A stretch of DNA of 64,000 nt from Marinomonas sp. UCMA 3892 (lineage in GTDB: Bacteria > Pseudomonadota > Gammaproteobacteria > Pseudomonadales > Marinomonadaceae), in contig NZ_PTXN01000001.1 of the NCBI RefSeq assembly GCF_012726345.1, positions 124,001 to 188,000 of the forward strand. Reading direction: 5' to 3'. Each line of letters starts with the position of its first letter. Position 1 is the first letter of the stretch. Below, in pieces: positions 2,965 to 5,948 of the stretch. The position numbers and the translations under genes are program-made. The notes under the pieces were generated by a model. The model was not told the DNA's origin and ran no database searches. It saw only the letters and a list, made by a program, of their open reading frames with translations.

Positions 2965-4185
2965 ATGCAGCCACTTTCATTGCCGCCAAGACTTCTTATG
3001 GGCCCAGGTCCAATTAACTGCTATCCACGCGTGTTGTCAGCGATGTCGACTCAGTTAGTGGGGCAATACGACCCAAGCATGACCAGCTACATGAATGAAG
3101 TCATGGAATTGTATCGCCGTGTTTTTAATACTCAGAACCAGCAAACTTTTTTGATCGATGGCACGTCTCGTGCGGGTATCGAAGCCGCTTTGGTGTCTTG
3201 TTTGGAACCGGGCGACAAAGTATTGATTCCTATTTTTGGTCGTTTCGGTCACTTGTTGGCTGAAATTGCTGAACGCGCCGATGCGGAAGTTCACACCATC
3301 GAAGTGCCTTGGGGGGAAGTGTTTGATCCTCAGCAAATCGAAGACGCCATTAAGAAAGTGCAGCCTAAATTATTGGCGATTGTTCAGGGCGACACTTCAA
3401 CCACCATGTTCCAACCTTTGGAAGAGTTAGGTGATATTTGTCGCGCTCACGATGTGTTGTTCTACACCGATGCCACGGCGTCAATTGGTGGCAACCCGTT
3501 GGAAGTAGACGCATGGAAAATCGATGCGGTGTCTGTTGGTTTGCAAAAATGTTTGGGTGGCCCATCAGGTAGTGCGCCGATTACTTTGAGTGATCGTTTT
3601 GTGTCTTGCGTGCGCAAGCGTGCCCATGTGGAAGCAGGGATTCGTGATGCTCATCATCAAGGGTCATCTGGCATGCGTATTCGCTCTAACTATTTTGATC
3701 TACCTATGATTATGGATTACTGGGGAGAAGAGCGTCTGAATCACCATACGGAAGCCGCCACCATGTTGTTTGGCTCCCGTGAGTGTGCGATCCAGTTGCT
3801 TACCGAAGGTCAGGATGCGGTGATTAAACGCCATCAATTGGCTGGTAACGCTATGTTACAAGGTGTGATTGCGATGGGCTTGCAGCCGTTCGGAAATCTT
3901 AAACACAAGATGAGCAACGTGGTTGGCGTTAATATTCCAGAGCAAGTAAATGGTGAGCAAGTTCGCCATGATTTACTGAACATCTTTAATATCGAAATCG
4001 GCACCAGCTTTGGTCCATTAAAAGGCAAGGTGTGGCGTATTGGCACCATGGGCTACAACGCTCGCCAAGATGCGGTATTGCATACTTTGCAGTCACTGGA
4101 AACCGTACTTCGTCGCGCTGGTTTTGCGTTACCTGCTGGTGCAGCGGTAGACGCAGCAATGGCTGTCTACAATGGAGATAAATAA
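2965..4185 (+). CDS. pucG: (S)-ureidoglycine--glyoxylate aminotransferase (PucG/HpxJ-like)
   Basis: This 406-residue protein is a PLP-dependent class V aminotransferase of the alanine-glyoxylate type. The N-terminal LMGPGPINCYPRVL, the central DTSTTM and TDATASIGG, and the PLP lysine in VGLQKCLGGPSG (Lys195) are diagnostic. PucG and HpxJ transfer the amino group of ureidoglycine to glyoxylate, giving oxalurate and glycine. Overlap of its stop by 1 nt with the allantoate hydrolase start strongly supports this assignment over plain serine- or alanine-glyoxylate transamination. The ribosome site TAGGAG lies 7 nt before the ATG. The protein is cytosolic, with no targeting signal. Confidence 0.82.
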   Translation: MQPLSLPPRLLMGPGPINCYPRVLSAMSTQLVGQYDPSMTSYMNEVMELYRRVFNTQNQQTFLIDGTSRAGIEAALVSCLEPGDKVLIPIFGRFGHLLAEIAERADAEVHTIEVPWGEVFDPQQIEDAIKKVQPKLLAIVQGDTSTTMFQPLEELGDICRAHDVLFYTDATASIGGNPLEVDAWKIDAVSVGLQKCLGGPSGSAPITLSDRFVSCVRKRAHVEAGIRDAHHQGSSGMRIRSNYFDLPMIMDYWGEERLNHHTEAATMLFGSRECAIQLLTEGQDAVIKRHQLAGNAMLQGVIAMGLQPFGNLKHKMSNVVGVNIPEQVNGEQVRHDLLNIFNIEIGTSFGPLKGKVWRIGTMGYNARQDAVLHTLQSLETVLRRAGFALPAGAAVDAAMAVYNGDK

Positions 4186-5411
4186 TGATTGATTGCAACA
4201 ATCTCGCTCAGCTGGTCATGGACCGCTGTGACGAACTTGGCAAAATCAGTCAAAGCGACGATTGCCTAGATCGTCGCTATCTCACCAAGGAACACAAACA
4301 AGCCAATGGACTGGTGGGCGGCTGGATGCAAGAAGCAGGTATGCACACTTGGCAGGACGCCGCCGGTAACCTTTGGGGACGCTGGGAAGCCGCTGATCCA
4401 CAAGCGCCTCGCTTTATCATGGGCAGTCATTTGGATACCGTGCCAAACGGCGGTCAATACGATGGCATGCTGGGTGTTATCACGCCGGTGACCTTGATCG
4501 GTGCTATGCAAAAAGCGGGAATCCGTTTGCCATTTCATCTTGATGTGGTGGGATTCGGGGATGAGGAAGGCACGCGTTTTAGTTCTACTTTGTTGGGAAG
4601 TCGTGCCTTGACGGGTCAATGGCCTGAGAGTTGGGCGGATTTAACGGACAGTGATGGCATTAGTTTGTCTCAAGCCCTTAAAGACTTTGGTTCGGACTTT
4701 GCGAACATTCCCAATGCGACCATATCGACGGACAACTTGCTTGGTTACCTTGAGTTGCATATTGAACAAGGGCCAGTATTAGAAAGTTTGGATTTGCCCG
4801 TCGGTGTCGTGAGCGCCATCGCAGGAGCGAAACGCTTCGAGTTTAATGTTACTGGTATGGCGGGACACGCAGGCACGGTTCCAATGAATCTGCGACAGGA
4901 TGCTCTTTGTGCCAGCAGTGAAATGATTTTGGCAATAGAGAAAGTCGCACAGCAGCATGGCATTGTGGCTACAGTAGGCCGTATTCAGAATCGCCCTAAT
5001 GGTGTGAACGTGATTTCGGGTAACACGGGATTTTCTCTTGATATTCGTAGCGAATTTGATGACAAACGCGATGTGGCTCTGGATGAAATTTTGCAGCAAT
5101 TAGACGCCATTGCGGCTCGCCGGAATGTCCGTATTGAACGCAAAGCCACTCATGCAGCCAATGCGGTTCATTGCGACGAAAAACTGCAAAGTAAACTGCG
5201 CAACGCCATTGAAGCGCAAAGTATGGCTGTTCATACCTTGTTCTCAGGAGCGGGTCATGATGCCATGGCGATTGCGGATATTTGCCCTGTGGCAATGCTG
5301 TTTATGCGTTGCGATAAAGGCATTAGTCATCATCCAGCGGAAGCCATTGATACGCCAGATGTGGCGGTGACCTTGGCGGTGTTGAACCACACATTACAGA
5401 ATTTGGCCTAA
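4185..5411 (+). CDS. allC: Allantoate amidohydrolase, M20 family (AllC/HpxK-like)
   Basis: A 408-residue Zn/Mn-dependent amidohydrolase of the N-carbamoyl amino acid hydrolase/allantoate amidohydrolase group. Visible metal and catalytic motifs are GSHLDTVPNGGQYDG (His82, Asp93), GDEEGTRF (Glu127/Glu128), LHIEQGP (His192) and the late SHHPAEAIDT histidine. The MAGHAGTVPM segment is the dimerisation/substrate lid motif of the family. It would convert allantoate to ureidoglycine, CO2 and ammonia, feeding the aminotransferase encoded just upstream with a 1-nt overlap. Beta-ureidopropionase is the main alternative, but the neighbours favour allantoate. It is the last gene of the operon before the repeat block. 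Confidence 0.82.
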   Translation: MIDCNNLAQLVMDRCDELGKISQSDDCLDRRYLTKEHKQANGLVGGWMQEAGMHTWQDAAGNLWGRWEAADPQAPRFIMGSHLDTVPNGGQYDGMLGVITPVTLIGAMQKAGIRLPFHLDVVGFGDEEGTRFSSTLLGSRALTGQWPESWADLTDSDGISLSQALKDFGSDFANIPNATISTDNLLGYLELHIEQGPVLESLDLPVGVVSAIAGAKRFEFNVTGMAGHAGTVPMNLRQDALCASSEMILAIEKVAQQHGIVATVGRIQNRPNGVNVISGNTGFSLDIRSEFDDKRDVALDEILQQLDAIAARRNVRIERKATHAANAVHCDEKLQSKLRNAIEAQSMAVHTLFSGAGHDAMAIADICPVAMLFMRCDKGISHHPAEAIDTPDVAVTLAVLNHTLQNLA

Positions 5412-5493
5412 CGTTTTTTGTGGCTACTCTGCATAACGCCTCGCTCCTTCTGTACTTTATCCAGAATCACGCCTCGCTCCTTCTGTGCTTTAC

Positions 5494-5563
5494 CCAGTAT
5501 CACGCCTCGCTCCCCGAGCAGGCTCGAAGAATCGCTCTGGCGTGATTCTGGGTTCAGTGAGTA
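5494..5563 (+). repeat. 70-bp hairpin repeat, copy A
   Basis: The unit runs from CCAGTATCACGCC to TTCAGTGAGTA. Its ends form a stem: CCAGTATCACGCC pairs with GGCGTGATTCTGG with one mismatch. The inner part carries CTCCCCGAGCAGGCTCGAAG, itself partly self-complementary (CGAGCAGGCTCG). It matches copy B at 69 of 70 positions by eye, the one difference being T versus A at the fifth base. High identity of neighbouring copies suggests recent duplication or gene conversion. Confidence 0.85.
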
Positions 5564-5601
5564 GACGTTTAAGAATTGAATAAACCGAAGCAAACTCGTA
5601 G

Positions 5602-5635
5602 GTCAGATGAGACGAGGAACGAGGCGTGATCTGAC
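5602..5635. repeat. Hairpin with CGAGGAACGAG loop core
   Basis: A perfect 7-bp inverted repeat, GTCAGAT at 5602-5608 and ATCTGAC at 5629-5635, encloses a loop holding CGAGGAACGAG (5613-5623) and GGCGTG. The loop is close to the complement of the ACGCCTCGCTCC motif of the neighbouring units, so it looks like a diverged, inverted member of the same family with its own stem. Confidence 0.7.
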
Positions 5636-5697
5636 GGTTGAAGAGGCATGAGATGATTGAAAATGGCACATGACGCCTCGCTCCTTTTGTTCTTCAA

Positions 5698-5767
5698 CCA
5701 GAATCACGCCTCGCTCCCCGAGCAGGCTCGAAGAATCGCTCTGGCGTGATTCTGGGTTCAGTGAGTA
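5698..5767 (+). repeat. 70-bp hairpin repeat, copy B
   Basis: Near-identical to copy A, with the outer stem perfect: CCAGAATCACGCC at 5698-5710 pairs with GGCGTGATTCTGG. It lies 204 bp downstream in the same orientation. The repeat is non-coding by appearance and could act as a REP/BIME-type element affecting mRNA ends or nucleoid proteins. Confidence 0.85.
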
Positions 5768-5774
5768 AGCGGTT

Positions 5775-5811
5775 GAAGAATCGCTCTGGCGTAATTCTGG
5801 GTTAAGTGAGT
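5775..5811 (+). repeat. Partial third copy of the hairpin repeat
   Basis: This stretch repeats the right half of copies A and B (GAAGAATCGCTCTGGCGT through GTGAGTA) with two substitutions and no left half, so it cannot form the outer stem. It begins directly after copy B and looks like a truncated tandem copy. Confidence 0.75.
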
Positions 5812-5843
5812 AGTTTTGCATTCGATGCATACACGACGAAAAG

Positions 5844-5916
5844 CTTCCATGCGTTTAATTGGCGCTGACGTGTCGAGGAACGAGACAATACGCAAGCCAA
5901 TTGAATTGCATGGAGG
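5844..5916. repeat. Long imperfect palindrome upstream of the cupin gene
   Basis: Nested inverted repeats are CTTCCATGC (5844-5852) with GCATGGAGG (5908-5916), AATTGGC (5857-5863) with GCCAATT (5896-5902), and TGTC (5871-5874) with GACA (5884-5887). The loop again carries CGAGGAACGAG (5874-5884), as in the hairpin at 5602-5635. It ends 32 nt before the cupin start and could be a mobile repeat, a leader hairpin or a regulatory structure. Confidence 0.65.
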
Positions 5917-5948
5917 CTAATGATTTACGATAAATAGAGGAATACTTG

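Follow-up and report, generated by a model that had tools for sequence, protein, structure and literature searches.

An intergenic block of palindromic repeats behind an M20 hydrolase gene in Marinomonas, with two hairpin families of nearly fixed core and changing arms

Bacterial MITEs are short, dispersed and non-coding elements capable of forming hairpins, and their conserved ends serve a transposase. REP families are defined by their stem, loop and terminal tag, in an account that is without Marinomonas as far as its main text goes (PMC3733652). Pairs of REPs and transposases from Marinomonas have already been published: REPtron Ma of Marinomonas sp. MWYL1 comprises a group 2 TnpA-REP and the elements REPMa1 and REPMa2 (42 and 38 nt), with the REPs concentrated near the transposase gene (PMC8266576). 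Template switching is described as keeping hairpin stems paired, in that case for RNA genes (PMC8794818).

The repeat block described here lies in the window, i.e. the whole stretch of 64,000 nucleotides from Marinomonas sp. UCMA 3892 that was analysed. Similar to the REP/BIME of E. coli and the GTAG/CGTC repeats (PMC3733652), it is an intergenic mosaic of palindromes that mostly do not lie between divergent genes; none of 59 copies of its element B and 6 of 102 copies of its element C have such a position (some neighbours unassigned). In contrast to REP/BIME as described there, B and C have a conserved inner core and arms that differ between sites (PMC3733652).

Architecture of the block

The block (positions 5436-5918) is intergenic, with an M20 hydrolase gene upstream and a cupin gene downstream, in a member of the genus Marinomonas. 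Its features and the flanking genes are as follows.

4185..5411, plus strand: M20 hydrolase gene; the best NCBIfam match above cut-off is allantoate amidohydrolase
5436-5468 and 5469-5501, plus strand: two 33-bp half units, corresponding to the 5' half of element B (direct repeat, ACGCCTCGCTCC matches)
5494..5563, plus strand: element B, copy 1; hairpin 5494-5551 with a single T-T stem mismatch; model R1 90.8 bits
5598..5635, plus strand: element A, predicted REP; GTAG at 5598-5601, then an imperfect hairpin at 5602-5635
5673..5705, plus strand: 5' half unit of B preceding copy 2 (direct repeat, ACGCCTCGCTCC match)
5698..5767, plus strand: element B, copy 2; hairpin 5698-5755 with a perfect 13-bp outer stem; model R1 87.9 bits
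5775..5813, plus strand: 3' half unit of B (direct repeat, 95%)
5842..5918, plus strand: element C, large hairpin; fold z -6.5; model R2 109.5 bits
5949..6314, plus strand: gene of a small cupin protein; likely start ATG 5949, the start in the ORF list being TTG 5946

The block is best explained as a mosaic resembling a BIME, in which three distinct palindromic elements (A, B and C) lie behind the M20 hydrolase gene, with a probability of roughly 0.55 for the explanation as a whole. The single family of related repeats seen in a preliminary description of this DNA was replaced by three families, into which the hairpins of the block fall. Its more local observations held. The two 70-bp units (5494-5563 and 5698-5767) differ solely at 5498 (T) versus 5702 (A), a truncated third unit is present (5775-5813), and the single motif ACGCCTCGCTCC occurs exactly at 5436, 5469, 5502, 5673 and 5706. 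Both reported hairpins are real, and the 11-mer CGAGGAACGAG is common to them (5613-5623 and 5874-5884). With up to one mismatch, ACGCCTCGCTCC has seven matches in the window versus 0.15 expected, a number reached by none of 100 shuffles.

When folding was compared with 200 shuffles, the large hairpin had a z of -6.5, the second 70-bp unit of -3.1 and the first of -1.8 (11 shuffles equally stable). The REP hairpin alone is not unusually stable, since its z is -0.8 and 46 of the shuffles are equally stable. Promoter predictions in the block did not exceed those in shuffles.

Element A and its transposase

Element A is present in 23 copies in this genome (degenerate pattern, up to three mismatches); the reversed control gave none. 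The preliminary description had called for such a genome-wide count. The tag GTAG stands directly 5' of an imperfect hairpin in the window copy and in 22 of the 23 pattern matches, and is lacking in a copy with two mismatches at position 423575 of contig C10. Twelve of the 23 copies are located within 6.3 kb of this contig (C10:423575-429907), where they flank an ORF of 159 residues on both sides.

L034:3122-3601, minus strand: transposase ORF with copies of element A on both sides

The encoded protein matches the NCBIfam model NF047646 (REP-associated tyrosine transposase) with 174.4 bits versus a cut-off of 80. It also matches Pfam Y1_Tnp and, at E 1.1e-48, the TnpA-REP structure PDB 4er8. 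It is 99% identical to a transposase of M. shanghaiensis, and relatives at E 1e-20 were found in 14 of 48 Marinomonas genomes. The REP-associated tyrosine transposase that had been proposed as a check is hence encoded elsewhere in the genome, with copies of element A around its gene. Judged from sequence, element A is a predicted REP of the type processed by REP-associated tyrosine transposases, and an ordinary representative of a system already known. With 38 nt including the tag, it is most likely of the REPtron Ma kind, a likeness drawn from the published description. What the two share, as far as REPtron Ma is described, is the genus, the GTAG tag, a long imperfect hairpin and copies crowded round the transposase gene (PMC8266576).

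A second REP-like family, TGTAGGTCGGCCTTTAGGCCGTCAA, occurs at L042:889-1988 (contig C10 of this genome, approximately 412,727-413,826) in several copies 52 bp apart. These repeats flank a Y1 transposase fragment on both sides and apparently form a second REP/transposase pair.

Cores and arms of elements B and C

Element B is a hairpin with an asymmetric, nearly fixed core of about 29 nt on a long stem. Among 17 loci at the gap between the M20 hydrolase and cupin genes, species differ by 2.7% in the B core, by 27.8% in its arms and by 46.8% at fourfold sites of the cupin gene. The changing arms stay paired. In 24 aligned B copies, 89.1% of cells pair versus 79.5% in shuffled ones, and changes on both sides affected 53 cells versus 19 in shuffles. 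Two of the five measures of covariation are weak, values as high being reached for pairs changed on both sides by 35 of 500 shuffles and for pair types by 138 of 500. Across all sites, 56 B hits reduced to 19 stem-distinct hairpins with a median score of 12 for their own arms and of 3 for swapped ones; own arms scored at least 8 in 15 of the 19 hairpins and below this in four, versus at least 8 in 6 of 342 swapped combinations. These hits were 56 out of 61 (four reverse-strand duplicates and one partial hit were left out), from source loci selected by hand (42 for the B set, 66 for the C set). The apical 4-bp stem also covaries with its partner, as CGAG/CTCG, CGCG/CGCG and CAAG/CTTG round a CARG loop, and at a site shared by two genomes (G030 and G017) the arms differ alike on both sides by eye. 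Mismatches between the arms comprise 5 G-U versus 11 A-C with hairpins scoring under 6 left out, and 23 versus 32 in a wider set; a preference for G-U is thus absent.

The pattern in B fits arm-to-arm copying at the level of DNA better than selection on RNA, on small numbers. The arms of one B copy (L058) do not match, which looks like an uncompensated or recombinant state. The isolated compensations of single pairs at the gap also fit ordinary point changes. A cloverleaf fold of the core (RNAalifold) was set aside because core variants break its helix; CGCG-CAAG-CGCG keeps the apical stem and breaks the cloverleaf helix.

In this genome, the 70-bp B units were found only at this block, whether by BLAST or by covariance model. 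At E 0.001, the whole block has matches in 34 of the 48 Marinomonas genomes, many of them to A or C. B is present in 17 of the 20 fetched loci with the gap intact (the window and 16 relatives) and absent from three, a fraction biased by the fetching of loci for a matching block; one further contig is truncated and stands outside the 20. The B covariance model R1, built with the cloverleaf inner pairs and scored on the best 104 candidates per genome, found B in at least 33 of 48 Marinomonas genomes at E 0.01, many of the matches lying at other sites. At least three such sites are common to species by matching flanks (judged on 80 of 374 locus pairs). In one relative (G021), four B copies distributed over three sites have almost identical stems, which suggests a spread of whole hairpins. 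In three loci of this relative (L152, L168 and L169), another palindromic repeat, GGTACGAGGGGATTGTATCCCCGAT..., adjoins copies of B and C. Two relatives also have hairpins of the B type in the vicinity of 5S rRNA genes (L294, L299 and L194; G016 and G024). The block had no match at E 0.01 in plasmids and E. coli genomes, and in the neighbourhoods of 50 non-Marinomonas RAYT relatives neither B nor C was matched at E 1. Viral contigs gave two matches to the B pattern, with stems unpaired by eye, and none to the C pattern.

Element C is a longer, likewise dispersed hairpin family with a nearly fixed asymmetric core of about 33 nt. At E 0.001, its model R2, scored on the best 91 candidates per genome, found it in at least 34 of 48 genomes, with at least 37 matches in one genome and at least seven in this one. 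Of the same 20 loci with the gap, 16 contain it there, with as many as four copies in tandem, and a 5S rRNA gene adjoins it in 4 of 14 loci scanned, including this genome. For 13 loci at the gap, differences were 7.6% in the core, 10.5% in the arms and 46.7% at fourfold sites. Core and arms are both constrained there, since both lie far below the fourfold sites, and the core is only a little less variable than the arms. Of 105 C hits, 93 were used (eight opposite-strand duplicates, three weaker hits and the strong hit L265:550-639 were left out); the core was recognised in 90 of them. Among 15 stem-distinct C hairpins, own arms scored at least 10 in 14, versus 12 of 210 swapped combinations, and a stricter rule of distinctness left 6 of 7 versus 1 of 42. 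C stems contain 95 G-U versus 16 A-C mismatches in 73 copies, an excess that is not clean evidence because the copies share stem positions; the poor stem-distinct set has one of each. The excess may speak against an account of C at the level of DNA alone and would fit selection on RNA, the shared positions being the alternative. Tandem arrays of about 220-250 bp, in which C alternates with other palindromes, were seen in at least two further genomes (G004, locus L313 on contig C22; G022, locus L316 on contig C12), and some of the alternating palindromes carry a GTAG head.

B and C are not REPs in the strict sense. At the ends of B, 5' GTAG and 3' CTAC were each found in 2 of 56 hits, unenriched relative to the control (95/1986). 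For C, of which 62 hits were used in this test, 5' GTAG (2/62) was likewise unenriched relative to its control (112/2283), and 3' CTAC (6/62) was slightly more frequent than in that control. G021, with at least ten B and at least six C matches, yielded no PF01797 (Y1) match; the loci fetched for B or C (L188-L312) gave no match to the RAYT model. The 12-kb locus of the transposase in turn contains only A, with no match to the B or C model. As bacterial MITEs, B and C are short, dispersed, non-coding and hairpin-forming; whereas the ends of MITEs are conserved, those of B and C vary and the middle is conserved. Their terminal inverted repeats are not conserved, the arms varying by site (19 stem-distinct hairpins of B, 15 of C), and the ends of both elements lack a sharp boundary. 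Unlike REPtron Ma in its published description, B and C have neither the tag nor a nearby transposase (PMC8266576). With the published cases of template switching they share arms that change and yet remain complementary; those cases are RNA genes, whereas B and C are dispersed repeat families with a fixed core (PMC8794818). No published description of B or C was found in the open-licence papers searched.

Two proposals of the preliminary description therefore apply to parts of the block. The mobile REP-like family is retained for one hairpin, that at 5598-5635, with its GTAG tag and a transposase gene in the genome. A conserved loop with changing stems is found within B and less strongly within C. 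It does not describe the pair from which it had been drawn (5602-5635 and 5844-5916), since these belong to two different families and the 11-mer is replaced in other C copies.

Origin and meaning of the B and C hairpins

The architecture of B and C is uncommon for repeats that are dispersed and palindromic. We infer their function and their movement, the latter because no empty site was found for either. They are likeliest REP-like elements with a selected core and with arms kept paired at the level of DNA. Selection would act on the core, which some protein would recognise within a DNA hairpin, either single-stranded or cruciform. The stem would stay paired mainly because replication switches template from one arm to the other (quasi-palindrome correction), and selection for the hairpin perhaps also contributes. 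Both elements would have spread as REP-like, non-autonomous repeats via some mobiliser.

It is unlikely that B and C are instead structured RNAs that stabilise mRNA, resemble terminators or bind proteins in 3' untranslated regions, the apical domain being conserved and the stem kept by ordinary compensatory evolution. Such RNAs would agree with the position of B, which at many loci follows a gene in sense orientation, frequently 30-100 nt past the stop (simple ORF calls), as well as with the nearly invariant core, the superior folding of the large hairpin and the G-U excess in C. However, B is without the G-U preference, 9 of its 59 copies (orthologues uncollapsed) are antisense to both neighbours, and ten flanking proteins scanned, one of them beside a C copy, have no function in common. 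In the block itself, terminator-like sites do not exceed the shuffles (2 versus a mean of 1.1), and an Rfam scan gave five matches at E up to 5, none of them at gathering score. Somewhat more doubtful is an interpretation as DNA sites bound by gyrase, IHF or some other protein of the nucleoid or of replication, maintained by selection and with no mobiliser. The strong conservation of the core and the persistence of B, which occupies the gap at 17 of the 20 fetched loci and three further sites common to species, speak for it, but not the wide variation in copy number (0 to 37 R2 matches per genome) nor the G021 copies that carry nearly one stem at separate sites.

A single mobile REP family with the common loop CGAGGAACGAG would account for the shared 11-mer; we consider it very improbable. 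The loops of A and C (5613-5623 and 5874-5884) both read GAGGNACGAG and vary at the same base, and eight of the nine occurrences of CGAGGAACGAG in the genome lie inside REP copies by position, the ninth being the loop at 5874. The 11-mer by itself is mildly unusual, as 5 of 100 shuffles also give two matches at up to one mismatch. B is without it, other C copies have it replaced (e.g. by GAGCTTGCGAAAC or GTCTCGGNACGAGAC), GTAG is unenriched at the ends of B and C, and only A surrounds the transposase gene. The 11-mer is thus treated as a minor resemblance between A and C. That the 70-bp units are merely a local duplication is hardly credible for B as such and correct for its second copy. In the window strain the REP adjoins B, and the second B copy arose by a local duplication of 204 bp. 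In a relative (G039; 97.6% identity in the cupin DNA), half units and a single full B copy are present, with the second copy and the REP match absent here; in G035, three truncated REP matches at intervals of 136 bp come after the one B copy. The units were found nowhere else in this genome, the outcome that had been named as pointing to a mere duplication, but 16 relatives carry B in this gap too, and the genus has it at other sites as well. The sole difference between the copies makes copy 2 a perfect palindrome, a base change that could be an arm correction or a recombination; the half unit at 5461-5473, the partner in the latter case, carries the same base.

For B and C as REP-like elements with a selected core, a broader formulation is offered tentatively: they may represent a dispersed class of bacterial hairpins whose identity resides solely in an internal core, the arms being nearly free because each is repeatedly rewritten from the other. 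It is similarly conceivable, at the same low confidence, that the core is the recognition target of a dedicated protein processing single-stranded DNA, and that this protein moves the hairpin or makes use of it.

Searches for palindromic repeats usually rely on similarity over the whole unit, and in this way families with a fixed core and changing yet paired arms are easily missed. In our case, BLAST returned a single B locus in this genome, and the covariance model returned B in at least 33 of 48 genomes. B and C offer many natural replicates for the study of template switching from arm to arm in bacteria. They also prompt the question of which factor recognises their core.
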